A stretch of 64,000 bases of DNA from Flexivirga meconopsidis (GTDB taxonomy: Bacteria; Actinomycetota; Actinomycetes; Actinomycetales; Dermatophilaceae), in assembly GCF_026162425.1 (NCBI RefSeq), contig NZ_JAOBQJ010000001.1:248001-312000 (forward strand), in the 5' to 3' direction. The translations under genes and the position numbers were made by a program. The notes under the pieces are model-generated. The model did not search any database. It saw nothing but the letters and a program-made list of their open reading frames with translations, and was not told the DNA's origin. Shown piece after piece: positions 11,961 through 26,530 of the stretch. Position 1 is the first letter of the stretch, and each line of letters starts with the position of its first letter.

Positions 11961-13829
11961 GTGCCCAACTCGCGCCCCGTGCCCGGTCACCGCGCTCGCC
12001 CGCTCGGCTGGCTGGGGGCCTTGCTCGCGCTCTACCTGGCGATCCCGCTCGGCTACTTCCTGCTGCGTTTCGTCACCACTGAGGACAGCCGCGGCTTCGG
12101 CGAGCCCGGCCTCTGGGACGCGGCGCGCACTTCGGCGGTCTCGGCGGCCATCTCGGCGGCCGTCGTCTTCGTGCTCGGGGTGCCGCTCGGTTACTGGCTC
12201 GCGCACGCGCGCGGGCCGGTGCAGCGCGTGGTCGGGATGCTCGTGCAGCTGCCGCTCGCGCTGCCGCCGGTGATGAGCGGCATCGTGCTCATCTACCTGG
12301 TCGGGCCCTACACCTGGCTCGGTGAACTCTTCGACGGCCGGCTCACCGAGTCGCTCGCCGGAGTCGTCATCGCGCAGACGTTCGTGGCCGCGCCGTTCCT
12401 GGTGATCGCGGCACGGTCGGCGTTCGCCGCGGTCGATCCGGAGCTGGACGACATCGCGGCAACCCTCGGGCACCGGCCGCTGGCCCGTTTTGCCCGGGTC
12501 GACCTGCGGATCGCGGCCCCCGCCATACGAGCGGGACTGCTGCTGACCTTCTTGCGCGCCATCGGTGAGTACGGCGCGACGGTGCTGCTCGCCTATCACC
12601 CCTACACGCTGCCGGTCTTCACCGCCGTGCAGTTTCAGTCGACCGGCATCCCGTCGACGCAGGCCCCGACTGCCGTCGCGCTGGCGACTGCGGCAATCGT
12701 GTTGCTGGTGGCGGGTTTTCGGCTGCCGCGCCGCTGGCGGAGCCGTATGACGAAGGCCGCATCCGTGCCGCCGCCGACTCACCCGCCGGCAGTCTCACCG
12801 GAGCGGGTCAGTTTCGATCTCGACACTCGCGTGGGTGATTTCCACCTGCGGATGGCGCATCAGGCGACCAGCACCCGCGTGGCGGTGCTCGGCGCGTCGG
12901 GTGCCGGCAAGTCCATGTTGTTGCGGGCGCTCGCCGGCCTGCTCGGGCCCGACGTCGGCACCGTGCGGTGCGGCTCGGACGACCTGTCCCGCGTGCCTGT
13001 GGAGCGACGCCGGCTCGGCTACGTGCCACAACGGCACGGGCTGCTGCCGGACCGAACTGCCTGGCAACAGGCGACTTTCGGGGTGCGCGCTGATGCAGGT
13101 GTCGCGGCCTGGTGGTTTGAGACGCTTCGGCTGCAGGGTCTGCACGGGCGGCTGCCCGACCAGCTCTCGGGCGGGCAACAGCAGCGCGTCGGGCTGGCGG
13201 CGGCGCTCAGCCAGACGCCGCGCCTGGTGCTGCTCGACGAGCCGTTCACCGCGCTCGACGCGCCGGTCCGGCAGGAGCTGGTCACCGAGTTGCGGCGGTT
13301 GCAGCGCCGGGACGCGCTGTCGACCATCGTCGTCACGCACGATCCGCAGGAGGCCGCGATGCTCGCCGACGAGTTGGTCGTGGTTGCCGACGGCCGCATC
13401 GTCCAATCGGGTTCGGTGCGTGAGGTTTTCGATGCTCCGGCGTCGCCGCAGGTGGCCCGCCTGCTCGGCATCGAAAACGTGCTCGAAGGTGTCGCCGACG
13501 GTGGCGAACTCGTTGCCGGGTCGGTGCAGGTGCCGGTGCGGACCTGGCTGCCAGCCGGCACGCCGGTGACCTGGTGTGTGGCACCCCAGGACGTGCTGGT
13601 CGGCGCGGCCGGTGTGCCCGCGACCGTCGTTGACGTCGCCGACGTCGGCACGTCGGTGCTGGTCGACGTGGAGCTCGACGGCGGACCCTACCTGCGTGCC
13701 CGGTGCTCGACGGACGCTGCTGCCGCGCGGCTGGCTCCCGGTGCGCCGGTCTCGGTCGACTTCCGCCCGGACAGCGTGACCGTGTGGGCGCAGCCCGACT
13801 CGGCGCCCGTGCTCACCGGCCGACGCTGA
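11961..13829 (+). CDS. Fused ABC permease and ATPase for molybdate/tungstate (ModB-ModC type)
   Basis: This 622-residue protein joins two subunits that are usually separate. Residues about 15-265 are a ModB-type permease with five to six helices and the EAA-like loop (DDIAATLGHRPLARFARVDL). Residues about 275-490 are an ABC ATPase with Walker A GASGAGKS, signature LSGGQQQR, Walker B LVLLDEP and H-loop THD. Residues 500-615 resemble a TOBE oxyanion-sensing region. The fusion fixes a 1:1 ratio and implies a homodimeric transporter fed by the lipoprotein encoded just upstream. It starts at GTG 11961 and is convergent with the glycosyltransferase operon. Confidence 0.88.
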   Translation: MPNSRPVPGHRARPLGWLGALLALYLAIPLGYFLLRFVTTEDSRGFGEPGLWDAARTSAVSAAISAAVVFVLGVPLGYWLAHARGPVQRVVGMLVQLPLALPPVMSGIVLIYLVGPYTWLGELFDGRLTESLAGVVIAQTFVAAPFLVIAARSAFAAVDPELDDIAATLGHRPLARFARVDLRIAAPAIRAGLLLTFLRAIGEYGATVLLAYHPYTLPVFTAVQFQSTGIPSTQAPTAVALATAAIVLLVAGFRLPRRWRSRMTKAASVPPPTHPPAVSPERVSFDLDTRVGDFHLRMAHQATSTRVAVLGASGAGKSMLLRALAGLLGPDVGTVRCGSDDLSRVPVERRRLGYVPQRHGLLPDRTAWQQATFGVRADAGVAAWWFETLRLQGLHGRLPDQLSGGQQQRVGLAAALSQTPRLVLLDEPFTALDAPVRQELVTELRRLQRRDALSTIVVTHDPQEAAMLADELVVVADGRIVQSGSVREVFDAPASPQVARLLGIENVLEGVADGGELVAGSVQVPVRTWLPAGTPVTWCVAPQDVLVGAAGVPATVVDVADVGTSVLVDVELDGGPYLRARCSTDAAAARLAPGAPVSVDFRPDSVTVWAQPDSAPVLTGRR

Positions 13830-13839
13830 TGTCAACCGG

Positions 13840-13855
13840 CCGCGCTCGTGCGCGG
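13840..13855. terminator. Short hairpin between convergent operons
   Basis: CCGCGC-TCGT-GCGCGG lies between the stop codons of the transporter gene and the glycosyltransferase operon. No T-tract follows on either strand, so termination is only likely from the position. Confidence 0.4.
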
Positions 13856-14818
13856 TCACGACTGCAGCACCCGCGCCAGTTGGTGGGCGGCCCGCTCCGG
13901 GCTGGGTTGCACGGCGAGCGCACTCGGCAGCACCGTCGAGTCGGGGTCGTCCCACGCTCGCCGCAGGGCCGCGGCAAGGTCGTCGACGAGGCAGATGGCG
14001 CCGGGATTGAGCGTGGCAACCTCCTCGGCAAACGGGTTCCTGGTCGCGACCGGCCGGCGCCCGGCGGCGTTCCAGTGCGTGAGCGACCCGGACGCGGAGA
14101 CGTGCGCCGGCGCGGCGACCGGCACGCGGACCGTGGCCATGGCGTCGAGCAACTGCGCGTCCGGCAGATAGCCGGTGCACGCGAACGTGCGGCCCAGCTC
14201 GGCGGCGCTCCCGGCATACCGGTCGACCAGCGTCTCGTGCCCGGGCGAGGGGGCGCCGAGGTTGAGCAGGCGTGCCGCCCGAGGCAGCCCGGCCATTGCC
14301 GCGAGGACCTGTTCGTGGCCCTTGCCTGGGTAAATGAACCCTGCGATCGCCACAGCGCAGCCGCCTGGGCGAGCGGTCCGTTGCCGGGGCAGCACCGGTA
14401 GCGCGACCACCTCGACCGGCACGTCCGCCAGCCCGAGGTCGGCGAGCAGCCGGGCCTCGTGCCGGCTGCTGACGACCACCAGCCTGCTGCCCCGGGCGAC
14501 GCTTCGATAGACCTCGCTGCGCGCCGACTGAAGCGGTCCGTCGGACGGTTGGGGCACATCGTGCAGGGTGACCGAATACCGCCGGCCGGCAGTCAATTCG
14601 GCCAGCGTCGAGCGCGCCCGCCCGACTCCGCCGAACAGCTGGTCGGTGAAGTGCACGTGCACATCCGTGTCCGGGTGTGGGCGCAGGCGCGCGCGGGCCT
14701 GCTGTGCGTCGGCCGCGCGGACCACGGACGTGCCGGCGAAGGGCGGCTGGCTCAGCAGAAGCTGTGCGTGTGCCACTACGCCGTGGTGCTCCGGTCCCAC
14801 GACCAGGTGCACGGTCAC
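13856..14818 (-). CDS. Glycosyltransferase, GT-B fold (last gene of operon)
   Basis: This 320-residue protein has a GT4-like layout: an N-terminal nucleotide-binding half (MTVHLVVGPEHHGVVAHAQL, later RYSVTLHDVPQPSD and LVVVSSRHEARLLADLG) and a C-terminal donor half (AVAIAGFIYPGKGHEQVLAA, NLGAPSPGHE). The usual E-x7-E donor motif is weak. GTG 14818 overlaps the upstream stop as GTGA, which decides the start against an extended frame. It is the last of eight translationally coupled genes and presumably adds one sugar of the operon's product. Donor and acceptor are unknown. There is no signal peptide or membrane segment. Confidence 0.78.
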   Translation of the reverse strand: MTVHLVVGPEHHGVVAHAQLLLSQPPFAGTSVVRAADAQQARARLRPHPDTDVHVHFTDQLFGGVGRARSTLAELTAGRRYSVTLHDVPQPSDGPLQSARSEVYRSVARGSRLVVVSSRHEARLLADLGLADVPVEVVALPVLPRQRTARPGGCAVAIAGFIYPGKGHEQVLAAMAGLPRAARLLNLGAPSPGHETLVDRYAGSAAELGRTFACTGYLPDAQLLDAMATVRVPVAAPAHVSASGSLTHWNAAGRRPVATRNPFAEEVATLNPGAICLVDDLAAALRRAWDDPDSTVLPSALAVQPSPERAAHQLARVLQS

Positions 14819-17076
14819 CTGCGCCAGCCCCACTCTGCCTCGAGGTCAACCGGGTGGACGAGCGACCGGGGAACGACCCAGGGTGGCACCCTGTGGACGA
14901 CTCGCGAGGGAGTATGCCGGTGCGCCGCCCGCACGTCGACCACGCTCGCCTCGAGGTCGGGATGCCGGTAGATCACCGGACCGGCGCTGACGATCGCTTG
15001 AACGGTCTCAGTGAGGACGCACGGCGTCGACAACCGGATCTCCCACGGCGTGCGCCCTCGTCGATAGGTGGCGCGCACCCGATGGTCGGTCGCCAGCTCC
15101 GGCGGCGCGGTGATGCCCGGTGGAATGATGAGTGCAACGTCGCCAGACGCGAATACGCTTGCGGCGCAAGCGATCAGAGCAGCTTGGTTGTTCGCCTCGC
15201 GCAGCAGCACCGCGACCTGCGGGTGCTCCCAGGCCAGTGAACCGTGCCGCAATCTCGGGTCGGGTATCAGTTGCGCCAGCGCGCGCAGCTCCTTGTTCTT
15301 GCGCTCCACCCGGTCCGCGGCGGCGCCCCGCCTGCCCTGCTCCTCACCGTCGTGCCAGGCCACCGCGGCACCCACATGACGCAGGTCTGCGCCAGCGATC
15401 CAGGCTCGATGGGCAAGTTCCCAGTCCTCACCGCCGTACGCCCGGAAGGACTCCTCGAATCCGCCGATCCGCTCGAACAGGGCGCGGTCGATCCCGGCGA
15501 CCGCGCTGATGACGAAGCGGTAGGACCGCTCGTCAGCGTCGCGCAGCTCGCGGGTCGCGGCGTATCCCTCGTCGAGCCATGCCGGCTGTGGGAGCAGCTG
15601 GGCGCCGGCCGGCGCCTGGTCACCGTCCGGGCTCGACCAGGGTGTCTCGGGGTCGAGCAGCGCGTGCATCCGGCGGCCGACGACGAGGCCGCGCGTCTCG
15701 CGCACCGCGTCATACATGCGCTGGACGTAGGTGGCTGTCGGGGCCATATCGGCATCCAGGAAGAGCAGGACCGGTGCGCTGCCCGCGCCCACAGCCAGGT
15801 TGCGGGCGGCGCCCGCGCGGAAGCCGTCACGTCGCTGACGCCGCACCACAACCTGGAAGGGTCGCTGCCCGATGGCCGGTGGTGCCGGCGAGCCGTCGTC
15901 GCCGACCAGCACGGTCATCCGGTGCATGGGGAAGGTCTGTTGCTCCAGCGCGCTGAGCAACCGGTCGAGCGCTCGCTGATCGCGAAACCACGGGATGACG
16001 ACGTCCACCCTGGGCTCGACCAGGGCGGCGTAGCGCCGCGCGTGCGAGTGCGCCGTCCGCTCGCGATCGCGTGCCCGGGACGTCGCCAGCGTCGCCCGGT
16101 CGACGGGAGGGGCAGCCAGGCAGTCGGACAGCGCAGCATGCAGCGACTGCTCGGTGGCCGCCCGGTCCCCGAGCCGGTAGAGCGCGGTCGGTTGCTGGTC
16201 GGCATACGCGCCATGGTCGGGGGCCACGACGTGGACGCCGGCGTCGCGACATGCCTCGGCCCACCCGGAGTGCGTGCCCCAGCGGTAGGGCAGGACCGCG
16301 ATGTCCTGGCTTTCCAAGCCGGCTGCCAGAGCGTCATCATCCTGCCAGCCGAGGCGTTCCACCTCGACTTCATCGCCGCGCCGGGCGAGCCAGTCCGCCA
16401 GTTCGGCCGACCCAGCCCGCGGCCGCAGGTCGACGCGCAGCCGCACCGCCCGGCCCTCGGTCGAGAGGCGACGCACCACCTGCAGCAGTGGCTCGAGCAG
16501 CTCGACCGTCGCGGTCGCGGCGCGCACCGCACCCAGGTGCACTCCCACGATCACCGGCCCGTCCGGTGGCTTGGCAGGCCGTTGCCGGATGCGCTCCAAC
16601 GGCAGCACATGCGGATGAGCCACGACCGTCGTGGCGCGGTCCCACCGCTGACGGACACTGCGAGCCGCGGTCGGGGTGAGTGTGAAGAGTTCGTCCGCCG
16701 CCGGCACGAACACGTCGAGCAACCGGTCGTATGACGTTTGGTCCCTCAGGTGCGGGTTTGTCAGGTCGTGGACGGTCATCGCCAACGGCTTACCGAGGTC
16801 TCGTAGTGCCGCCACGAAGTCACGGGCCTGCTCGACGGTGAGGTGCTCGAAGCCGAAGTGCAGATGGACCAGGTCGAAGTCGTCGGCGTGCTCGCGGAGC
16901 CACGACACCGTCAGCCCCTGGTGCGGCCACCACTGACCGGGTTGCGGCTTGAGCGCGTCCGGCACCGGCGGGTCGGCAAGGTGCACCACGGCAGGAGCGC
17001 GCGCCGGCCCAGTGCCCGGCGCCGGGAGCAGATGTCGCACGTAGGTGTGGCCGGCGGGGATCGCGAGGACTCTCAC
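14815..17076 (-). CDS. Two-domain glycosyltransferase (GT-B plus GT2 fusion)
   Basis: This 753-residue soluble protein fuses two transferases. Residues 1-345 are a GT-B enzyme (DLVHLHFGFEHLTVEQARDF, MTVHDLTNPHLRD, then IAVLPYRWGTHSGW near 262). Residues about 357-600 are a GT2/GT-A enzyme (VDVVIPWFRDQRALDRLL, metal-binding LFLDADMAP near 442, FRAYGGEDWELAHRAW near 530). A C-terminal tail of about 130 residues is not recognised. GTG 17076 overlaps the previous stop as GTGA; the frame stays open 66 codons further but overlaps the preceding gene. Two activities in one chain suggest consecutive sugar additions. Confidence 0.82.
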   Translation of the reverse strand: MRVLAIPAGHTYVRHLLPAPGTGPARAPAVVHLADPPVPDALKPQPGQWWPHQGLTVSWLREHADDFDLVHLHFGFEHLTVEQARDFVAALRDLGKPLAMTVHDLTNPHLRDQTSYDRLLDVFVPAADELFTLTPTAARSVRQRWDRATTVVAHPHVLPLERIRQRPAKPPDGPVIVGVHLGAVRAATATVELLEPLLQVVRRLSTEGRAVRLRVDLRPRAGSAELADWLARRGDEVEVERLGWQDDDALAAGLESQDIAVLPYRWGTHSGWAEACRDAGVHVVAPDHGAYADQQPTALYRLGDRAATEQSLHAALSDCLAAPPVDRATLATSRARDRERTAHSHARRYAALVEPRVDVVIPWFRDQRALDRLLSALEQQTFPMHRMTVLVGDDGSPAPPAIGQRPFQVVVRRQRRDGFRAGAARNLAVGAGSAPVLLFLDADMAPTATYVQRMYDAVRETRGLVVGRRMHALLDPETPWSSPDGDQAPAGAQLLPQPAWLDEGYAATRELRDADERSYRFVISAVAGIDRALFERIGGFEESFRAYGGEDWELAHRAWIAGADLRHVGAAVAWHDGEEQGRRGAAADRVERKNKELRALAQLIPDPRLRHGSLAWEHPQVAVLLREANNQAALIACAASVFASGDVALIIPPGITAPPELATDHRVRATYRRGRTPWEIRLSTPCVLTETVQAIVSAGPVIYRHPDLEASVVDVRAAHRHTPSRVVHRVPPWVVPRSLVHPVDLEAEWGWRR

Positions 17077-17978
17077 CGGGCGCACAGCTGCCACCCCGCG
17101 TCGTGTCGTGAGACCAGACCCTGGCGCTCGAAGCCGGTCAGCCATCCCTCCGCCGGCCACCACCCCCATCGATCGGCGAAGATCTGGCCGTTGCGCACGA
17201 TCGAGCGCACGTGCTCGGTCGGTGGCGTGCTCGTCGGATGATGCTGGTGATAAGTGTCGGCGCCGCCGACCCACCCCAGGCCGACCCCGGACGCGGTCAC
17301 CCGGCAGGCGAAGTCGGTGTCCTCGACGCCATATCCGACGTAACTTTCGTCAAACCCGCCGACGCGCGCCCAGGTGTCGAGGGTGCACGCCATGGACAGC
17401 GACCAGAGCAGCGCATGGTCGCCGAGTTCGGCGGCGTCAGCGGGTGCCCGGCCAAGACCCGGCACGCGCGCTGTCGTGCCGGGTCGGGGATCCGGACGCG
17501 CCGGGTGAGGTGAGCGGTGGCGTGCGCAGAGGTCGAGCACGGCAGCGCCGGCAAACGGCAGGTCCAGCGGAGGAAGGTAGGTGACGGCGCCACAGGCGAC
17601 GGTGTGCGGATCGGCTTGCAGCGCCGCGGCATACCGCGGGAGTGTGCTGGCGGCCGGCAGGCAGTCGACGTCGAGGAGCAGCACCGCGTCGGCACCCAGG
17701 GACGCGGCCGTTGCCACGCCGACGTTGCGGGCGGTCGCCAGCGGCAGCTCCGGTCCGGACGTCGGGAGGTCGACCACGGTGGAGGTGGGCGCGACGAGTG
17801 ATCGCACGCTGGGGTCGCCCATCGCCACGACAACCCGCGGGCCGATCGACGGCAGGAGGGCGAGGACGGCCTCCTGCCGTCGTAGGTGCTGGTGCCGCCC
17901 CCGGACGATTGTCACGACCGCCATCGTGCTCGGAGTCGTGGCACCCACAGCCATGGCACTCACAGCCATGCCACTCAC
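17073..17978 (-). CDS. Glycosyltransferase family 2
   Basis: This protein of about 301 residues has a GT-A core: AVLLLDVDCLPAASTL (the DxD-like DVD), then VGGFDESYVGYGVEDTDFA, the conserved GFDE...G.EDtd region of GT2 enzymes. GTG 17978 overlaps the upstream stop as GTGA, but an internal ATG at 17924 (MAVVTIVRGR) begins the recognisable domain. The 18 codons between are an imperfect SGMAV/SAMAV repeat, so the true start is uncertain. There are no membrane segments. The fourth-last to second-last genes of this operon are all transferases, which suggests a defined oligosaccharide rather than a polymer. Confidence 0.82.
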   Translation of the reverse strand: MSGMAVSAMAVGATTPSTMAVVTIVRGRHQHLRRQEAVLALLPSIGPRVVVAMGDPSVRSLVAPTSTVVDLPTSGPELPLATARNVGVATAASLGADAVLLLDVDCLPAASTLPRYAAALQADPHTVACGAVTYLPPLDLPFAGAAVLDLCARHRSPHPARPDPRPGTTARVPGLGRAPADAAELGDHALLWSLSMACTLDTWARVGGFDESYVGYGVEDTDFACRVTASGVGLGWVGGADTYHQHHPTSTPPTEHVRSIVRNGQIFADRWGWWPAEGWLTGFERQGLVSRHDAGWQLCAR

Positions 17979-19036
17979 AGCCACCGTCCGATCACCTCCA
18001 GGGCACGGTCCACGGCGTCCGCGGGTGCCCACGCTGTCCAGTCCCGCGGCCAGGCGATGGCCTGCTCGTAGATCGGCTCCCAGTCGGTCGGTTCGTGCAA
18101 AAGTGCGCGGGCCAGACCGTGATGGTGCAGCACAGCGGCGGTCGCCGCCTGCTCCCCGAAGGGCCGGTGTTGCGGGATGACGACCGCCGGCCGGTCGGCG
18201 GCGGCGACCTCGGCGATGAGGTTCTGTCCGGCATGGCAGACCACGACCTGACTGGAGGCGATGGCGGCGGGTACGTCGTCACACCATTCGGCCGGCCCGA
18301 TTGCCTTCCGGCGCCATGGGCGTTCTTGGTGCCCTGTCCGCGGCGGGACGGTCGTCGGGCACGCGCGCCCGGTCCGCCACGGGTCTGCAAGCTCCGCCGA
18401 TCCGGCGTCCGGTGCCACGGCCTGATCGAAGAGCTGGGCCGAACCGCCGGCTCCGGTGACTTCGAGGACGGTGCCGGGTATGGCGGCGGTCGCATCCGCC
18501 AGCGCGTTTCCCGTCGGTGCTCCGGTGAAAACGACTCGATCGCGCACCGCCGCCAGCCAGTCGGGGCGGTAGAAACGCTCGGGCCACGGGGCGATGATCG
18601 CGTCGGCGCAGGCGAAGCCCAGCCGGTGCGCCGCGTCGGTGCGCTCGCCTGGCTGAGTGACCACCACGGTCGGTATGCCGAGCAGCCGCGCCAGCAGGGT
18701 GACCTCCACCGAGGTGTCGGTGACCAGGACCGCCGGCCGGTGAGCGACCAACCAGGCAGCAAGCCGGCGCATACGCTCCGCGAACTGCCCGTCAGCGCCG
18801 CGCGGCGCCCAGTGCAAGAGCCCGTGGACGCTCGGATCCCCCGATGCCGGCGGGTCGTCGGCATCGGGACCGATGCGTTCGCAGGCCACCCCCGGCAGGC
18901 TCGGTGCGTGCGGCAACTCGCCGAGCAGAGTCACGGCTGCACCGCCCGCGGCGAGTTCGCAGCCCAGCAGCGTCGTACGGGCAAGATGGCCTCGCCCGTG
19001 GTGGTGGACGTAGAAGGCGACTTCCCCCCGCGTCAT
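17975..19036 (-). CDS. MurG/GT28-like glycosyltransferase
   Basis: This 353-residue protein opens with FYVHHHGRGHLARTTLLGCE, the glycine-rich G.GH loop of GT28/macrolide-type transferases. It has the C-terminal donor-binding block VVCHAGQNLIAEVAAADRPAVVIPQHRPFGEQ, closely resembling the GGHN/E region of MurG-like enzymes that use UDP-sugars. The start ATG 19036 overlaps the previous stop (ATGA). No membrane segment is seen, unlike a lipid-carrier polymer pathway, although MurG itself is peripheral. The acceptor is presumably the product of the preceding transferases. Confidence 0.82.
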   Translation of the reverse strand: MTRGEVAFYVHHHGRGHLARTTLLGCELAAGGAAVTLLGELPHAPSLPGVACERIGPDADDPPASGDPSVHGLLHWAPRGADGQFAERMRRLAAWLVAHRPAVLVTDTSVEVTLLARLLGIPTVVVTQPGERTDAAHRLGFACADAIIAPWPERFYRPDWLAAVRDRVVFTGAPTGNALADATAAIPGTVLEVTGAGGSAQLFDQAVAPDAGSAELADPWRTGRACPTTVPPRTGHQERPWRRKAIGPAEWCDDVPAAIASSQVVVCHAGQNLIAEVAAADRPAVVIPQHRPFGEQAATAAVLHHHGLARALLHEPTDWEPIYEQAIAWPRDWTAWAPADAVDRALEVIGRWL

Positions 19037-20163
19037 ACCGGGTGACTCAGGGCGGTGTGACTCCGGTTGGCCGTCAATCCCTGATACAGCCGCAGGTAGC
19101 TGTCCATCATGACGTCCACGGACAGGTGGCGCTCAGCGGCAGTCCGGATCTGGGCGCGGTCCAGGCTGTCGACGATCGCAACCCCGCCCGCGAGCTCGTC
19201 GGGGTCGTCCACCAGCGCGCCGTTGAGGCCCGGCCGCACGATTTCGGTCAAGCCGCCGCGGGCGAGGGCAACCACGGGCGTGCCGCACATCAAGGACTCC
19301 GCTGCCACCAGGCCGAATGGCTCGGGCCAGTCCGGAGTGACCAGCGTCGCCGCGCTGCTGCCGTAGAACGCTGCCAGCTCCCGCCCGGACAGGTGGCCGG
19401 CATACTGCACGCGCACGCCGTCGATGGCCGGGAAGACGTGCGTGGCGGCATACTCCTTGTCGCTGACCGGGCCGGCGATCCGCAGCGGCCGACCACTTCG
19501 TAACGCCGCCCGGATGGTGAGGTGGGGGGCCTTCTCCGGGGTGATTCGACCAACCCACGCGAGCGCCTCCCCGCCCGGTCCGGGCGGAAAGCGAGCCGGG
19601 TCAACACCGTTGTGCACCACCCGAATTCGCGCGGAGAGCGTGCTCCACTGCGCAGCAAGGAAGGCGCTCACGCCGGTGAAGACATGCCGCTCCCCGGCCA
19701 GCTGCGCGCACACCTCGAGCCAACCGAACGGTGGTGTGTGCAAGGTGGTCAGCATGGGTGCCGGCACGAGATCGGCGAGCGCGACCGGATAGTGATGCAG
19801 GCTGTGGTTGTGGACTACGTCGATGTCCACCCGGTGGCGCAGCTGCTGCATCGCCCACAGGTAGGCGAGGTGACTCCCGATCTCCTCCGGTGGTGGGCAC
19901 GTGGTGTCCATCCAGGACGCGTCGCTCAACGTAACGGGCGGAAACGCCTGCAGCTCATCGCAGATGCTCGGATCGGAGCCGGCCGGGGCATACAGCACCA
20001 CCTGCGCACCGCGCGCTCGGAGGGTCGCGCAGAGATGCCAGACGAATGACTCCTGCCCGCCCGCGAAGGGCTCGGCGACCGGGAATCGGCTCGGGGCGAT
20101 GACGGCGATCCTCAGGTCGTGCGTCGGCGATGACAGCACTGCAACCTCCGATGAATAGCTCAT
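19033..20163 (-). CDS. Glycosyltransferase family 4
   Basis: This 376-residue GT-B enzyme has clear GT4 features: an N-terminal glycine-rich stretch PFAGGQESFVWHLC, IDVVHNHSLHHYPVAL, the hinge RIRVVHNGVD, LAWVGRITPEKAPHLTIRAA at the donor domain, and the E-x7-E motif PEPFGLVAAESLMCGTPVVA. The family transfers sugars with retained configuration, for example GDP-mannose or UDP-glucose. ATG 20163 and the stop at 19033 both form ATGA overlaps with neighbours. Of the operon's transferases this one is the most canonical. Confidence 0.92.
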   Translation of the reverse strand: MSYSSEVAVLSSPTHDLRIAVIAPSRFPVAEPFAGGQESFVWHLCATLRARGAQVVLYAPAGSDPSICDELQAFPPVTLSDASWMDTTCPPPEEIGSHLAYLWAMQQLRHRVDIDVVHNHSLHHYPVALADLVPAPMLTTLHTPPFGWLEVCAQLAGERHVFTGVSAFLAAQWSTLSARIRVVHNGVDPARFPPGPGGEALAWVGRITPEKAPHLTIRAALRSGRPLRIAGPVSDKEYAATHVFPAIDGVRVQYAGHLSGRELAAFYGSSAATLVTPDWPEPFGLVAAESLMCGTPVVALARGGLTEIVRPGLNGALVDDPDELAGGVAIVDSLDRAQIRTAAERHLSVDVMMDSYLRLYQGLTANRSHTALSHPV

Positions 20164-20915
20164 GTGCCGGTCTGGTGGACTACCGCCCGGACAGCTTGAC
20201 TGCCAGGCCGACGCGAGCTCGCACCAGCGAGGGCGTTTAGGTAGGCGGCGAATCCGCTTGGTGCGCGGCCGATTCGACGACCCGAGGTGATCACGGGGTC
20301 CGCCCCGTCGGCATGTATGACGAAACCACCGGCACTCAGCTTGCGGGCCAGGAGCACGTCCTCATCGTGTGCGACGGCGGGAAAGCCGCCGACCGCGTCG
20401 TAGGGCGCCGCGCGGAAACCCAGATTCGCGCCGTGCACGTGCCGGTGCCCATCGCGATCGTCATGGCGGGCACGCCAGGCGCGCAGGACGTCCGTCGGCA
20501 GATCCGCGGCATCCGGCTCGACCCGGCCGAGCACCAGGTCGGTGCCGTCGTGCGCGTGGTCGAGTTGGCGAGTGAGCCAGCCTGGGGGGACGACACTGTC
20601 GGCGTCGGTGCAGGCGATCCAGATCCGTGAGGGTTCGACCGCAACGGTCGCAGCGGTCGCGCGGGCGCGTGCCACCCCGAGGCGTCTGGCGAGTCCTACG
20701 CAACCGCAGTGGGATTCGACGACATGGGCGCCGGCGCATGCGGCGATTTCGGCGGTGTCGTCCGTGCACGCGTCGGCGACGACGACGCACGCGGTGCGCA
20801 CGCCATGCTGCTGCTCGGCATGGCGGCGGGCGACGTTCGCCGCTGCGACCGCCCTTGCCACCAAGGCGGATTCGTCCCGCGCCGGGATCACGACCAGCGC
20901 CTGCGCAATCGTCAT
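20160..20915 (-). CDS. Glycosyltransferase family 2
   Basis: This 251-residue GT-A enzyme has ALVVIPARDESALVARAVAA at the N-terminus, CVVVADACTDDTAEIA (the nucleotide-binding D.StD.T block) and IWIACTDADSVVPPGWL (DxD). A later GGFPAVAHDEDVLLARKL carries the catalytic-base ED. It is short, with no membrane helices, so it is probably a cytosolic transferase using a nucleotide sugar. ATG 20915 overlaps the previous stop (ATGA); the long frame upstream is a shadow of the PIG-L/methyltransferase gene. It follows the deacetylase directly, so it may extend the amino sugar. Confidence 0.87.
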   Translation of the reverse strand: MTIAQALVVIPARDESALVARAVAAANVARRHAEQQHGVRTACVVVADACTDDTAEIAACAGAHVVESHCGCVGLARRLGVARARATAATVAVEPSRIWIACTDADSVVPPGWLTRQLDHAHDGTDLVLGRVEPDAADLPTDVLRAWRARHDDRDGHRHVHGANLGFRAAPYDAVGGFPAVAHDEDVLLARKLSAGGFVIHADGADPVITSGRRIGRAPSGFAAYLNALAGASSRRPGSQAVRAVVHQTGT

Positions 20916-22237
20916 GCCGTCGGGTCGGGGAGGCACTCGGCGGCGCAGTGCAGGACGATCTCCACGTCGCGATCGCGATAGACCGCCGACGCCGGCGGCA
21001 GCGGTGCGGCCGCGAATGCCGCATGCACGGCTGCGGCATCCAACGGCCACCCGTCGATCGGGTGCCGCCAGTGCGCGAGCGCGACGACCCCGTCGTCTGC
21101 GAGTAGTTCGCCGATGCGTCGGATCGTGCCGGTCAGCGCGTCGGGGCTGAGGAAGTAGCCGACCTCGGAGCAGACGACGAGGTCGAACGGCTCGCCGTCC
21201 GGCAGGTCGGCTGGTGTGCTCCCGTGCCTGATCTGCACGTGGGGAGTGGGCACGCGGGACCGGGCCGCGGCGATCGCGGTCGGTGCGTTGTCGAGTGCCT
21301 CCAACCGGTCGGTGCGCTCGGCGAGCTCCCGGGTGAGCACCCCTGTCGAACAACCGATTTCGAGCGCCCGACGAAATCGCGCCCGAGGCAACATCGCGAG
21401 GAGGATCTGTCGTTTGCGCTCCTCGTACCAACGGGTGTCCGCGCCCCACGGCTCGGCGGTTTCGCGATGCAACCGCTCGAGGCGGTCGTCGGCTCCGACG
21501 TCCGACCGGACGAAGAGCTCCGTCATACCGGTGAAGTGCTCGAGGAAGTCCGGCAGCAGGATCGGCTCATCGCCGGGCTCCTCGGACAGCGGCTGCAATT
21601 GGCTGCGATGCGCGGCGATCGCCGCCGATTTGGTTGTCTGGGCGTCGGTTTCGAGCTTGAGACCGACCAGCTTGCCGTCCGGAAGCGTGCTTGGCAGACC
21701 GACGTGCCGAAACCAGATCGGATACTCCAGCAGCCGGCTGTTGGTGCGGTGCGCGGCCGTCGCAGCGGCTGCTCCAGCGGCTTCGTGGTCGGGATGGCCG
21801 TCGTGACGGTACGGCGCGACGACCAGGGTCCGGCGGGGGTCGTGCAGCCGGCGGACAAGGTCGGCGACGATCTCGTCGGTGGCGGTCTGCACGGCGCCGT
21901 CGGGGATGTGGCCGACGGTGACAGCGCCATACGGCAGGCCGAGCGCGGACGCCGCATGACGGGCCTCGACGCGGCGCAGCGTCGCGAGGATCGACGGGCT
22001 GTGAGTCGACGAGTCGGGGTGGGAGCCTTCGCCGGCGGTCAGGATGACCACTTCGACCGGCAGTCGGCGCCGCACGGCGGTCGCGATCAACCCGCCCGCG
22101 CCGAGGCTCTCGTCGTCCGGGTGTGCGGCAATGACCAGAACCCGGTCGATCCCGTCCAGGCCGACAGCGAGGTCCGGCTCGGCCGCCCAATCGGCTGCCG
22201 GAGTGCTGGGTTCGTCGTGCCGGAAGGTCGCGGTCAT
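20912..22237 (-). CDS. PIG-L deacetylase fused to SAM-dependent methyltransferase
   Basis: This 441-residue protein has two parts. Residues about 25-235 are a PIG-L/LmbE zinc deacetylase with the metal motif VIAAHPDDESLGAGG and the second motif HDGHPDHEAAG; such enzymes remove acetyl from N-acetylglucosamine conjugates (PIG-L, MshB, BshB). Residues about 265-440 are a class I methyltransferase of the NodS-like group with SAM motif ALEIGCSTGVLTRELAER. The fusion suggests that a freed amino sugar, or a neighbouring group, is then methylated. ATG 22237 overlaps the preceding stop as ATGA. It is the key to predicting the pathway product. Confidence 0.88.
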   Translation of the reverse strand: MTATFRHDEPSTPAADWAAEPDLAVGLDGIDRVLVIAAHPDDESLGAGGLIATAVRRRLPVEVVILTAGEGSHPDSSTHSPSILATLRRVEARHAASALGLPYGAVTVGHIPDGAVQTATDEIVADLVRRLHDPRRTLVVAPYRHDGHPDHEAAGAAAATAAHRTNSRLLEYPIWFRHVGLPSTLPDGKLVGLKLETDAQTTKSAAIAAHRSQLQPLSEEPGDEPILLPDFLEHFTGMTELFVRSDVGADDRLERLHRETAEPWGADTRWYEERKRQILLAMLPRARFRRALEIGCSTGVLTRELAERTDRLEALDNAPTAIAAARSRVPTPHVQIRHGSTPADLPDGEPFDLVVCSEVGYFLSPDALTGTIRRIGELLADDGVVALAHWRHPIDGWPLDAAAVHAAFAAAPLPPASAVYRDRDVEIVLHCAAECLPDPTA

Positions 22238-23310
22238 CGCCGGCCGGTCCCACCGGCATACACGGCCTCGCCGAGTGCCGCGAGGTCGCGCTCGGCGTGG
22301 TGCTGGCGCACGTAGAGACGCAGGTCGCTGACCCGCTCCGCATAGCGCCGATCGAGCGCCAGCGGGGCAGGACCCATCGCATGGTCGGCGATGCGGAGCA
22401 CTTCCTCGGCGATCTGCGCGCACTGGGCCCGCACCCGCAGGGCCAGCATCTGCGGTGTGGTGTCCATGCTGCCGTCGACCTGTGTTGCGGCCGACTGCAG
22501 CACCGTCTCGCCCGACCAGATGAGCAGATCGAGTTGTCCCAGGTGGAGTTTCGCGATCTGGTCCGGCGCGCGCCGGCGTCGTCGTACCTGATCGGCGATT
22601 GCGCGGGCGGCCCCGAACCAGATGACCGCGACTCCCATGCCTCCCCAGGCGAATCCGGGCCGGTCGAGATACCAGTGCGGCGGGCCGATAGGCCGCGCCG
22701 GCAGCCCGCGTGCCTCGATGGCGACACTGGTGACCTCCGGCAGTCCGTGGGCGACCCAGCCGGAGTCGTCGGCCGGCGTGACGCGCTCGTCGTGCAGGTC
22801 GATCGCGAAGAGTCCACGGGTGTCGTCGTCCAGCCACGCGGTGACCAGCGCGTGGTCGAGCCGGTCGGCCAGTGAGCACCACGGCTTGTTGCCGTCGAGG
22901 ACCCAGCCGTCGCCGGTGTCCGACCGGGACGCGCGAAGCCGGGCGTCCGGCGCCTCGGCCGCGAAAACGCCCCAACTGCCGGCAAATTCGAAGTCGCCGT
23001 CCAGGTAACCGTCCCGGCGGGCCTGCACGAGGATCGCGGCGGCGTCGAGGTGCGGCTCGACGGCGCGAGCCACGGTCAGGTCGATTTCGCCCAGATCGGC
23101 GAGCGTCGCCCACAATTCGGTGGTGCGGCCGTCGCCGGGGACCGGCAGGCGTGTGCCGAGCCGCTGGGCGAGCGCGAGGGCGGTGGTCACCCGCTCGGGG
23201 CTGTCGGCGGCTGTCCGCGCGGCATCTCGTATCTCGTCGCGGCCGATCGCCGGGGGTGCGGCCGTCGGGGGATCGCCCAGCGCGGGCAGGATGGACGAAC
23301 TGGCAGACAT
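22234..23310 (-). CDS. Acyl-CoA-dehydrogenase-like flavoprotein (first gene of operon)
   Basis: This 358-residue protein is shorter than the usual 380-400 residues of the acyl-CoA dehydrogenase family. It has the middle beta-domain pattern (FEFAGSWGVFAAEAPDARLR, GWVLDGNKPWCSLADRLDHA) and a helical C-terminal domain. The catalytic glutamate of classical enzymes could not be assigned. It starts the eight-gene operon; a Nudix gene is transcribed the other way across 73 bases. In this setting it may oxidise a carrier-bound or sugar-linked group rather than a fatty acyl-CoA. That role is inference. Confidence 0.75.
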   Translation of the reverse strand: MSASSSILPALGDPPTAAPPAIGRDEIRDAARTAADSPERVTTALALAQRLGTRLPVPGDGRTTELWATLADLGEIDLTVARAVEPHLDAAAILVQARRDGYLDGDFEFAGSWGVFAAEAPDARLRASRSDTGDGWVLDGNKPWCSLADRLDHALVTAWLDDDTRGLFAIDLHDERVTPADDSGWVAHGLPEVTSVAIEARGLPARPIGPPHWYLDRPGFAWGGMGVAVIWFGAARAIADQVRRRRRAPDQIAKLHLGQLDLLIWSGETVLQSAATQVDGSMDTTPQMLALRVRAQCAQIAEEVLRIADHAMGPAPLALDRRYAERVSDLRLYVRQHHAERDLAALGEAVYAGGTGRR

Positions 23311-23383
23311 GCCCGCTGACTACCCGTTTCGGCCCGCTTCACACCTGGCCGTATGGCGGAGGCTCCGATCACGAGAGGACCCG

Positions 23384-23896
23384 ATGGCTGCACCACTCGA
23401 TCCATATCTGCAGGGGCTGCGCGACAGGGTCGGACAGGACCTGTTGTGGTTGCCCGGAGTGACCGCGGTGGTATTGCGCGACAGCGCGGACGACGGCCCG
23501 GAGGTGCTGCTGGTGCGCCGGGCCGACAACGGTGCGTGGACCCCTGTCACCGGCATCGTCGACCCTGGTGAGGACGTCGACGCTGCCGCGGTCCGTGAGA
23601 TTCGTGAGGAGACGACTCTTTCCGCAGTGGTCGAGCGGGTCGTGTGGGTGCTCGCGCTGCCGGTGACCACCTACCCGAACGGTGACGTTTGCCAGTTCCT
23701 CGATACCACGGTGCGCTGCCGGGCCACCGGCGGTGAGGCGCGGGTCGGGGACGCGGAGTCCACCGATGTCGGCTGGTTCCCGGTGGCGGACCTGCCCGTC
23801 AGCTCGCCGCGGATGCGTCACCAGATCGAGCACGCCGCGAGCGGAGACCACGCTGTGCTCTTCGGGATGGATGGCCGCCGGCCGGGCGGGGCGTAG
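23384..23896 (+). CDS. Nudix hydrolase
   Basis: This 170-residue protein carries a Nudix box GIVDPGEDVDAAAVREIREE near residues 60-80. It departs from the consensus GX5EX7REUXEEXGU only at the final Gly, which is Thr (EETTL). The metal-binding glutamates are intact. Members cleave nucleoside diphosphates linked to other groups; the substrate is not evident. ATG 23384 is preceded by GAGAGGA; the longer frame from 23120 is antisense to the divergent operon. It stands opposite the glycosylation operon, so a nucleotide-sugar substrate is conceivable. Confidence 0.88.
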   Translation: MAAPLDPYLQGLRDRVGQDLLWLPGVTAVVLRDSADDGPEVLLVRRADNGAWTPVTGIVDPGEDVDAAAVREIREETTLSAVVERVVWVLALPVTTYPNGDVCQFLDTTVRCRATGGEARVGDAESTDVGWFPVADLPVSSPRMRHQIEHAASGDHAVLFGMDGRRPGGA

Positions 23897-23947
23897 TCGG
23901 TAAGGCGCGTTTCAGTCGCCCGCAGGTGCTCAGTCGTGCGGAGGTGC

Positions 23948-25627
23948 TCAGTCGGCGGGGTGGGTGAGGTAGGTGTGCCCGGCGGGGCTGGTCCAGGTGC
24001 AGGCACCGTCGGGTGTCATGGTGACGGTCCAGCCTGCTTCGTGTTTGGCGCGGTGGTGGTGTCGGCAGAGGCATTGCAGGTTGTGGGCTGCGGTCGGACC
24101 GTCCGGGTATGGGGTGACGTGGTCGAGGTCGGTGAGTGTTGCCGGTCGGGTGCAGCCGGGGAATCGGCAGTGCTGGTCACGGGCGCGGACGAACCGCGCC
24201 AACCGCGCACCGGGGGTGTAGGTCTGGTTGGCGGTTTCGGCCACCGTGCCGGTGTCGGCGTTGACCAGGGCGCGGGTGAGTTTGGTGCCGAGCAGGTCGG
24301 TGAGTTCGCGGATCGCATCGGCGGGGATGACCCCGACACCGGGGACGTGGATGTCGCCGAGCCGGTAACGCATCGGTGTTGGGTTGTCAGCGAAGCGGGG
24401 CACAGTCTCGCGCCGACGGGTTCGCGCTGGGTTAGTGGAGCGCGTTGGATCAGTGCTGCTCATCGGATGAGCCGGTGGCGCCGGGTCGGGTGGTGGGGCC
24501 GGTGGTGGTCGGGTGCCGGTCCGTGGTGCGGCTTCGCGCACCATCGCTTTGAGTTGGCGTTCGGCCTCACTGATCGGGTGGCAACTGGTCGGGCGGCAGG
24601 GGCCGAGGTCGAGGACGACCGGGTTGATCGGGAGCATGAACTCCCGCAGCGCGGGCGGTCGCACCTTGCCCGTGCATGTTTCGCGGGCCGGTCCGGTCGC
24701 CTCAACAGTCCCGGTCGCGTCCCCTGTGGCCGCGGCCGTTGTGGTGGTGGCGGGGTGGAAGGGGACGTGTAGGACGAGTTCGGTGGTCACGTGCGCGTTC
24801 GACAGGAGCAGGTCGGTAAGGGCGTCGACCCGGCATTCGCCGAGGCTCTTACCGGTGGCGGTCGAGCCGCGCAGCACTCTCGCGTGGGTGTTGATTGCGG
24901 TGATGAGTTTCGCCGCGTCCAGGGAGGGCAGGACGGCGGTGAGGGTGGACATGCCTGGCTCCCAGTGGGGTGCGACGGTCACGTCGGTGGACTCTCGCCG
25001 TCGTGCCGCCGCAGCGTGGTCGGCTGCGACGGGTGCGTGCTGGGTTAGTAGGCGGCGGGTGCGGCGGTGCAGTTTCGTCGATGTCGAGGTCTTCGGGGCG
25101 CTTGCGAGGATCTCGGCTTCGATGGTTGCGGCGAGGTCGACCGGACAATCAGCTGCCTCGGGTGTTTCGGGTGTGCCGGTTGCCGGGATCGCGTCGGCGA
25201 GGGTGTCGCTGACCGCGATCACTTTCCGTCCCTCCAACTCGCCGGTCCCGGCCTGGTGGAGCAGCAGCGGTGTGTAGCGGACACTCTCGACCGCTTGGCT
25301 GAGTCGCAGACTGGTTTGCCGGTCGGTCCACCCCAGCCGGGCACCGACTTCCAACGGTGTCCACGTGTCCGGGCTTTCGGGGTGTTTGTCGTATTCGCGC
25401 TGCGCGAGCTGGTCCAGCCGCAGGGTTTGGGTCGCCCACGCGGAGTTCTGCACCTGCTGGGTAGCGAGCACCTGATCGAGCAGGTCGTCATCCGAGAGAC
25501 CCGTGCCGTCGGGCTCGTGGGCCTTCTCGAACGCGGCGCGGAGCAGGGTTTGTGCTGCCTGCAGTAGTTCGCTGGTGGTGGCAGCGGTGATCACCTGGTT
25601 GGTGAGTGCCTGCTGCAGCTGGGACAT
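23948..25627 (-). CDS. DUF222 / HNH endonuclease domain protein (13E12 family)
   Basis: This 559-residue protein has a long N-terminal DUF222 region (about 20-330; WTPLEVGARLGWTDRQTSLR, LVLHVPFHP) and a C-terminal HNH nuclease domain (about 480-535) with HCRFPGCTRPATLTDLDHV and LCRHHHRAKH. This is the actinobacterial '13E12 repeat' family, present in many copies per genome and often linked to mobile DNA. Its biological role is not settled. A Thr/Pro-rich stretch lies between the domains. ATG 25627 is chosen over 25672. A REP-like sequence lies upstream. Confidence 0.9.
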   Translation of the reverse strand: MSQLQQALTNQVITAATTSELLQAAQTLLRAAFEKAHEPDGTGLSDDDLLDQVLATQQVQNSAWATQTLRLDQLAQREYDKHPESPDTWTPLEVGARLGWTDRQTSLRLSQAVESVRYTPLLLHQAGTGELEGRKVIAVSDTLADAIPATGTPETPEAADCPVDLAATIEAEILASAPKTSTSTKLHRRTRRLLTQHAPVAADHAAAARRRESTDVTVAPHWEPGMSTLTAVLPSLDAAKLITAINTHARVLRGSTATGKSLGECRVDALTDLLLSNAHVTTELVLHVPFHPATTTTAAATGDATGTVEATGPARETCTGKVRPPALREFMLPINPVVLDLGPCRPTSCHPISEAERQLKAMVREAAPRTGTRPPPAPPPDPAPPAHPMSSTDPTRSTNPARTRRRETVPRFADNPTPMRYRLGDIHVPGVGVIPADAIRELTDLLGTKLTRALVNADTGTVAETANQTYTPGARLARFVRARDQHCRFPGCTRPATLTDLDHVTPYPDGPTAAHNLQCLCRHHHRAKHEAGWTVTMTPDGACTWTSPAGHTYLTHPAD

Positions 25628-25764
25628 ACCCAAATCATACACGTGTTCGATGTGGTTGGGAAGGGTGCACAAGGCCGAATAGTGAGTGTTTCCAGTGTGA
25701 TTCGTGGGATCAGGCGGGGGTTGTCAGTGGCGGGTGGGATGGTGTTGCGTGGTGGAGTAGGAGT

Positions 25765-25816
25765 GGTCTCGATACGGGCTCCCCCGCATCGCCCCTCCGC
25801 CCTGCTCGACCAGCGC
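25765..25816. repeat. REP-like dispersed element
   Basis: The sequence begins GGTCTCGATACGGGCT and ends CTGCTCGACCAGCG. The same framework (GGTCTCGATACGG...CTACTCGACCAGCGAGACC) occurs at 33341-33391 and, in reverse orientation, within the repeats at 33122-33313. Intergenic elements with this core are common in actinobacterial genomes. Here it sits between the HNH gene and the next reverse-strand gene. Confidence 0.6.
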
Positions 25817-25843
25817 AAAACGACCGCAATTGGCCGCACGCAC

Positions 25844-26530
25844 TCAACGCGCCCGCACGAACTCCGCGCGGTAGCGCACGCCGCTGTCCTGGGAATGCAC
25901 CACGCGCTGGAGCACAACGTCATCGGCGGCGAACGCGGCGATCTCCTCGGGCGTGAGCCGCCACGGAGGTCCTTCCTCGAGCGGTATGCCTTCCGGGAGG
26001 GTGCTGCCGATCACCAGCAGCGTCCCCCCGGGCGCGACCAGCGACCGCACCGCGGCAGTGGCTCGCGCCCGGACATCGCCGTGCGGCATCGACTGCACGG
26101 TCATCACCTCGGCGACCAGGTCGAACGCGCCGACCCACTCGGACGGCAGCTCGAAAAGATCGGCGTCCCGGTAGTCGACCGGGCTCTGCGGGTGTGCCGC
26201 CCGCACAGTCCGCACGGCCGTCGGCGAAACGTCGAATCCCGTTGTCGCATAGCCGTATGACGCCAGCAGCTCGGAGTCAGCTCCCGGGCCGACGCCAGGC
26301 ACGATCGCGGACTTGCCGGTACCGTCGGGTGCGCCACCGCGTTGCTCCTGCGCCCAGTCGAGCAGCATCGGGTGCGGGCCGCCCCGGTCCCATGGCACGA
26401 CCGCCTCGCCGCGACCGGCCGCGTCATACAACGGCTCGAACCAGCCGGTCGGGTTGCCGGCTGCTACCGCGTCGTGAGCCAACCGCAGGGTTGCCTCGTC
26501 CTGGTCCGGGTTGTCGGGGTTGGTCGCCAT
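25844..26530 (-). CDS. TPMT-like SAM-dependent methyltransferase
   Basis: This 228-residue protein has the opening motif GNPTGWFEPLY ... VVPWDRGGPHPMLLDW of the thiopurine S-methyltransferase/HOL-like group. The SAM site (ILVPG.G in relatives) is here SAIVPGVGPGADSELLASYG, and AEVMTVQSMP and LVAPGGTLLVIGSTLP follow. Such enzymes methylate thiols, selenium or tellurium compounds, or halides; the tellurite-type cluster 4 kb away makes chalcogen methylation an attractive guess and no more. ATG 26530 is divergent from the SPOUT methyltransferase. Confidence 0.8.
   Translation of the reverse strand: MATNPDNPDQDEATLRLAHDAVAAGNPTGWFEPLYDAAGRGEAVVPWDRGGPHPMLLDWAQEQRGGAPDGTGKSAIVPGVGPGADSELLASYGYATTGFDVSPTAVRTVRAAHPQSPVDYRDADLFELPSEWVGAFDLVAEVMTVQSMPHGDVRARATAAVRSLVAPGGTLLVIGSTLPEGIPLEEGPPWRLTPEEIAAFAADDVVLQRVVHSQDSGVRYRAEFVRAR

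Follow-up and report, generated by a model that had tools for sequence, protein, structure and literature searches.

A composite eight-gene operon of Flexivirga meconopsidis that may make a stress-linked amino-sugar glycoconjugate

Organization of the operon

We analyzed a 64,000-nt stretch of the Flexivirga meconopsidis genome (assembly GCF_026162425.1, contig NZ_JAOBQJ010000001.1, positions 248,001–312,000 of the forward strand), hereafter called the window. Eight genes (A–H; Table 1) are encoded at 13856–23310 on the minus strand, and all seven of their junctions are 4-base overlaps (ATGA at four and GTGA at three), as the original prediction had described. The operon is a composite of a core (genes A–C) and a separable, shuffled glycosyltransferase (GT) cassette (genes D–H). 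Most genes exceeded the cut-off of at least one relevant Pfam family, with the exception of genes A and H, which scored below cut-off, and the N-terminal half of gene G, for which no Pfam match was obtained at E 0.01. A hydropathy scan of the eight proteins revealed no clear membrane helix (a borderline peak of 2.11 lies at residues 633–651 of gene G), and Pfam and equivalog profile searches detected no polymerase, flippase, or sugar-nucleotide families among them. The proteins look soluble, in line with the initial proposal of soluble enzymes. The operon is flanked in the window by a NUDIX gene, a DUF222/HNH gene, and modABC.

Table 1. Genes of the operon and stretches that differ among Flexivirga genomes.
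Feature	Position	Strand	Basis
Gene A, ACAD-like flavoprotein, 358 aa, core	22234..23310	-	Pfam middle domain below cut-off; AF2 fold
Gene B, PIG-L deacetylase fused to NodS-like methyltransferase, 441 aa, core	20912..22237	-	PF02585 + PF05401 (NodS)
Gene C, GT2a, GT-A glycosyltransferase, 251 aa, core	20160..20915	-	PF00535; AF2 model
Gene D, GT4, 376 aa, cassette	19033..20163	-	PF00534 + PF13439 over cut-off
Gene E, GT28-like, 353 aa, cassette	17975..19036	-	PF04101
Gene F, GT2b with GT7C-type C part, 301 aa, cassette	17073..17978	-	PF02709
Gene G, probable GT-B + GT2 fusion, 753 aa, cassette	14815..17076	-	PF00535 + PF02709, C half
Gene H, probable GT-B, 320 aa, cassette	13856..14818	-	PF13439 + PF13579 below cut-off
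Stretch with genes D–H missing in G004 (nearest relative), flanks align	13807..20166	.	blastn, window vs. L030
Stretch without nucleotide similarity in G001, G002, G003	13651..25858 (ends approximate)	.	blastn, window vs. L201–L203

Enzymes of the core

Gene B encodes a PIG-L domain (PF02585; 92.4 bits against a cut-off of 28.2) followed by a NodS domain (PF05401; 57.4 against 24 bits). The HPDDE and HxDH motifs, which have metal-binding and catalytic roles in PIG-L enzymes, are both present in gene B, and among the matches of relatives that reached the N-terminal part (best 80 of 521 loci) they were conserved in 74 of 76 and in all 76, respectively. The PDB chains closest to the methyltransferase half were 4isc, a methyltransferase that we take to be from Pseudomonas syringae, followed by NodS (3ofj). 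As judged from these similarities, this half is NodS-like, a point added to the original prediction, and together with the PIG-L domain and its motifs it supports the proposed amino-sugar chemistry. A narrow SAM-motif pattern occurred in 57 of the 78 methyltransferase halves among the best 80 of 521 loci.

Gene B shares the PIG-L family and both motifs with MshB and BshB, but it scored below all the corresponding equivalog cut-offs: 23.2 against 224.35 bits for mycothiol MshB (TIGR03445), 65.3 against 182.5 bits for bacillithiol BshB1 (TIGR04001), and 55.5 against 195.25 bits for BshB2. Elsewhere in the same genome the MshB model found four stronger matches (best, 214.4 bits; none over the cut-off). 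On the basis of these family scores and the stronger matches elsewhere, a role in mycothiol or bacillithiol synthesis was rejected. A defense system was also rejected, since the PADLOC mad2 model matched the methyltransferase half alone (56 bits) and the other seven proteins had no match.

Gene A matched the Pfam acyl-CoA dehydrogenase (ACAD) domains through the middle domain alone, at 20.6 bits against a cut-off of 33.3. Its AlphaFold (AF2) model (pLDDT 92.5; alignment of 71 rows) has the ACAD superfamily fold (Foldseek best E 2.1e-12) and matched ACADs, DszC, and KijD3 about equally. The fold is common to ACADs and the group D flavin enzymes DszC, KijD3, and DnmZ (query TM-scores mostly 0.66–0.74), but gene A differs from them in its low identity (13–20%) and in missing the Pfam ACAD cut-off. 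The catalytic glutamate of ACADs presumably lies toward the C-terminus; near that position, which lies beyond the end of the PDB alignments, the tails of gene A relatives carried His in 58 of 80 cases and an acidic residue in nine. Gene C is a GT-A glycosyltransferase by profile (PF00535; 49.3 bits) and by its AF2 model (pLDDT 92.3; 43 rows).

Glycosyltransferases of the cassette

Gene E matched the GT28 C-domain (PF04101) at 39 bits against a cut-off of 22, and gene F matched GT7C (PF02709) at 32.9 bits against 23, with PF00535 below cut-off. The start of gene F (17930–17978) contains repeated ATG-GCT-GTG-like triplets, giving several possible start codons. The glycosyltransferase nature of the N-terminal half of gene G is deduced from homologues, one of which (Rhodococcus) is annotated 'glycosyltransferase', and the C-terminal half exceeded the Pfam cut-offs for both GT2 and GT7C. 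Gene G scored 56.1 bits against the 280 bits of the mycofactocin MftF model (TIGR03965). Its two halves were separate genes in all 16 relatives' loci that held both, and the fusion was not seen there. The GT4-type N-domain matches of gene H were both below cut-off; in relatives, the gene H homologue adjoins the GT2 half of gene G.

Distribution of the core

An ACAD-profile scan was evaluated for the best 80 of 521 confirmed relatives, the closest named match among which was Flexivirga endophytica. At these best 80 of 521 loci, the PIG-L/methyltransferase gene was present at 78 and GT2a at 74; in the DNA around the same matches, GT4 was found at four and GT28 at three. The eight genes do not behave as the one unit first envisaged: the three core genes are found together in many Actinomycetota as well as in further phyla, and the cassette is separable from them. 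The core-module protein P0002 matched 24 of 58 genomes, and the ACAD-like protein was found in 37 of 196 genomes of a class-wide sample, the source genome being included in both counts.

Plasmid-borne versions of the core also exist in Pseudomonadota, Deinococcota, and other Actinomycetota. P0002 matched 185 plasmid records, with ≥80% of the protein covered in 35; the matches in Rhizobium and Sinorhizobium plasmids may be true nodS. Among 22 plasmid loci, most of which were chosen for taxonomic spread without a matched control, 17 held the core, taken here to mean an ACAD-like gene that has both a deacetylase gene and a NodS-like or SAM methyltransferase gene in its vicinity: Kitasatospora, Deinococcus (two), Acinetobacter (two), Pandoraea, Comamonas, Bradyrhizobium, Komagataeibacter, Sphingobium, Novosphingobium, Roseomonas, Cupriavidus, Rubrobacter, Paracoccus, Legionella, and Sulfitobacter. 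The Sphingobium and Novosphingobium loci were selected for adjoining GT28 and ACAD matches, and a Rhodococcus plasmid locus, selected for GT28, held cassette genes only. The Natrinema and Methylobacterium FF17 plasmid loci had no module, and the Gloeothece locus had only ACAD-methyltransferase-SDR. In the last of the 22, the Acinetobacter baumannii record L168, which carries no gene annotation, ACAD and PIG-L/methyltransferase adjoin by match coordinates. In a further record, from Nostoc, the two matches adjoin as judged by coordinates only. In Deinococcus radiodurans another gene precedes the methyltransferase.

One Rubrobacter locus had a polysaccharide deacetylase gene upstream of the ACAD and NodS-like genes, with no PIG-L gene listed. 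At this single locus, the NodS-like gene is accompanied by a deacetylase of a different, unrelated family, which gives the strongest indication that de-acetylation of a HexNAc precedes its methylation.

Two further observations concern Acinetobacter: an incomplete, unannotated ACAD-like match lies beside the core on an A. soli plasmid (L025, 8947–9651), and aph(3')-Ia (15428–16240 of L168) lies ~6.6 kb from the A. baumannii core match. A phage origin was rejected, the phage matches being two records under one name, Acinetobacter phage MD-2021a.

Relationship of the cassette to the core

The GT set of relatives comprised the N-terminal half of gene G, GT4, GT28, GT2b, and the GT-B/GT2 pair, in varying order and strand. 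A WcbI-family gene (e.g., 11389–12300 of L174) recurred near the GT-B/GT2 pair at eight of 32 cassette loci and an FkbM-like methyltransferase gene lay near the cassette at three of 32, one representative being scanned in each case; the operon in the window has no WcbI-family gene. Among 149 genomes of the order, including the source genome, 35 had GT28, 46 had the ACAD-like gene, and 25 had both (Fisher p 1.2e-8, without correction for kinship). At the thresholds used, ACAD occurred without GT28 in 21 of these genomes and GT28 without ACAD in ten; the two lay <20 kb apart in nine of the 25 double-positive genomes, all from the family of the window. In Sphingobium and Novosphingobium, GT4-GT2a-GT28-ACAD-PIG-L-methyltransferase-GT2b form a single run behind catalase, although the ACADs there share 26–27% identity with gene A and the GT2a match covers ~150 residues. 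Because of this run, the core and the cassette probably serve one pathway. Conservation of the neighborhood, as originally expected, thus holds for the core; as for the full set, the exact eight-gene order occurs in the window only, and seven of the functions are found together in the Sphingobium/Novosphingobium run.

Within the genus, the nearest relative (G004) has the core and lacks the cassette, and the missing stretch is the only gap >1 kb between 5.4 and 27.4 kb of the window, with flanks aligning at 79–94% (blastn). In G004, the GT2a gene extends into the terminal part of modBC, encoded on the opposite strand; this may mean that G004 lost the cassette rather than that the window gained it. 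In three other genomes (G001–G003), similarity to the window ends at 13468–13650 and restarts at 25859–25923, with 200–490 bases between, so that the genes from 25.86 kb on follow almost directly after modBC. The stretch without similarity contains the operon, the NUDIX and DUF222/HNH genes, and the diverged 3' end of modBC. As judged by these alignments, this block is a ~12-kb island between modBC and a methyltransferase gene, its site being empty in three of the five genomes of the genus. The G003 core is located at another site (346–6168 of L031), near Hsp20 and PPK2 genes, and GT28 occurs in one of the five genomes, that of the window. A foreign composition of the cassette was rejected, with GC3 values of 0.82–0.87 against 0.78–0.85 for the core and 0.79–0.89 for five flanking genes.

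Association with stress genes

Within the annotated stretches covered, nine of the 17 core loci carried a catalase gene or genes related to trehalose (otsA, otsB, alpha-glucan maltosyltransferase), and the other eight had neither. The Comamonas locus has the order otsA-ACAD-PIG-L-MT-GT2-otsB, and catalase is the next gene in line at the Sulfitobacter locus; it was also near five of 32 cassette loci (one representative scanned). Dps-like genes were present at 21 of the best 80 of 521 loci, four of the 21 being weak at 29–31% identity. In 12 of these best 80 of 521 the gene lay directly upstream of ACAD, and these 12 fall into two groups, Arthrobacter/Pseudarthrobacter and Cryobacterium; no PIG-L/methyltransferase was detected at one of them (L126). 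A Pfam comparison of near and far reading frames (145/381 near vs. 148/297 far), a weak test, yielded BrkB (four), catalase (two), Usp (two), and GH15/trehalase-like (two) near the loci. None of these families appeared among the 25 of 140 far families listed, a list in which single far members could be hidden, and the 25 near families listed did not include Ferritin/Dps.

According to the relevant part of PMC5660220, the A. baumannii genes ACICU_02432–02435 (GT, SAM methyltransferase, LmbE, ACAD-related) form one operon and fell 31–62 fold alongside otsA, otsB, and catalase in colistin-dependent mutants, rather than on drying; they were among 33 genes reduced more than ten-fold. These genes resemble the core but are separate, and no cassette is named for them in that part of the paper. 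A passage of PMC6240043 likewise places a glycosyltransferase, a methyltransferase, an LmbE-like protein, and an ACAD beside blsA. Both gene sets were equated with the core by name and order, not by sequence. Together, the neighbors elsewhere (catalase, trehalose synthesis, Dps) and the part of the A. baumannii transcriptome described point to a stress role. A function for the operon is not assigned in section 8 of PMC5660220 or in the pertinent passages of PMC12029717, PMC2848557, PMC6181384, PMC13232832, PMC13130816, and PMC6240043. The literature and profile searches made gave no match to a characterized pathway of such composition, in agreement with the original prediction.

Proposed pathway and alternatives

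We favor, with about even confidence, the view that this is a stress-linked biosynthetic operon whose soluble enzymes make an amino-sugar glycoconjugate that the cassette extends. Based on the enzyme families, GT2a would add a HexNAc-type sugar to an acceptor, after which the PIG-L domain of gene B would remove the N-acetyl group and the NodS-like domain may methylate the freed amine, probably by N- rather than O-methylation. The ACAD-like flavoprotein could oxidize the product or its acceptor in a flavin reaction, and the cassette enzymes (GT4, GT28-like, GT2b, GT-B/GT2, and GT-B) would subsequently extend or decorate the glycan. The product would probably protect cells from drying or oxidative stress. 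The glycoconjugate is favored by the linkage of the core genes at the best 80 of 521 loci, the PIG-L and NodS scores, the similarity to 4isc and 3ofj, the Rubrobacter deacetylase swap, the Sphingobium/Novosphingobium run, and the co-occurrence of GT28 and ACAD; the stress role is favored by the catalase, trehalose, and Dps neighbors and by the A. baumannii decrease reported in that part of PMC5660220. Counted against the proposal were the genomes with either module alone, the limited <20-kb linkage, the incomplete SAM pattern, the low identity of the Sphingobium/Novosphingobium ACADs, and the equation of the A. baumannii genes by name and order; against the stress role stood the eight core loci without catalase or trehalose genes, the absence of stress genes among the neighbors in the window, and the restriction of the upstream dps loci to two groups.

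A rather unlikely alternative is that a single transcript serves two separate pathways, with a small N-methyl amino-sugar glycoside as the product of the core and an unrelated surface oligosaccharide as that of the cassette. Each module is indeed found alone, and WcbI-like and FkbM-like genes lie near some cassette loci, but the interleaved run in Sphingobium and Novosphingobium, the co-occurrence in 25 of the 149 genomes, and the translational coupling across the gene C/gene D border in the window argue for a common pathway. It is less likely still that the glycosyltransferases act on a membrane lipid to give an amino-sugar glycolipid, with PIG-L working as it does in GPI-type chemistry: the weak profile matches of GT2a to polyprenyl-phosphate transferases and the YihY/BrkB genes near some loci would fit such a product, whereas none of the Pfam matches of the operon is to a lipid or membrane enzyme family and the fold matches of GT2a reflect general GT-A similarity. 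We consider improbable a specialized metabolite resembling aminoglycosides or glycopeptides, for which deacetylation, N-methylation, and N-oxidation would be the tailoring steps. Profile matches to teicoplanin deacetylases, sugar N-methyltransferases, and DszC/nitrososynthase-type flavoproteins would suit it, but they are weak, Pfam found no scaffold-forming or export gene in the operon, and the core occurs across several phyla, in many cases close to stress genes.

The stress-linked glycoconjugate pathway invites comparison with Nod-factor synthesis, in which nodB, nodC, and nodS encode a deacetylase, a GT2, and a NodS-type methyltransferase. Both systems group these three activities around an amino sugar. 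The operon differs in that PIG-L replaces NodB, except at the Rubrobacter locus, that GT2a has no membrane segments, that an acyltransferase is lacking, and that gene B missed the NodS equivalog (NF041650; 59.5 against 300 bits). As a tentative and somewhat doubtful extension, the soluble GT2/PIG-L/NodS/flavoprotein route might yield an N-methylated, possibly N-oxidized general stress protectant, a cross-phylum, non-symbiotic counterpart of Nod factors that the cassette elongates with up to six GT domains in some lineages.

If the proposal is right, many bacteria hold a stress metabolite pathway that current annotation splits into unrelated enzymes, and genes that fall with catalase and trehalose synthesis in one published transcriptome would gain a testable product. 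Nod-type amino-sugar chemistry would then extend beyond symbiosis.
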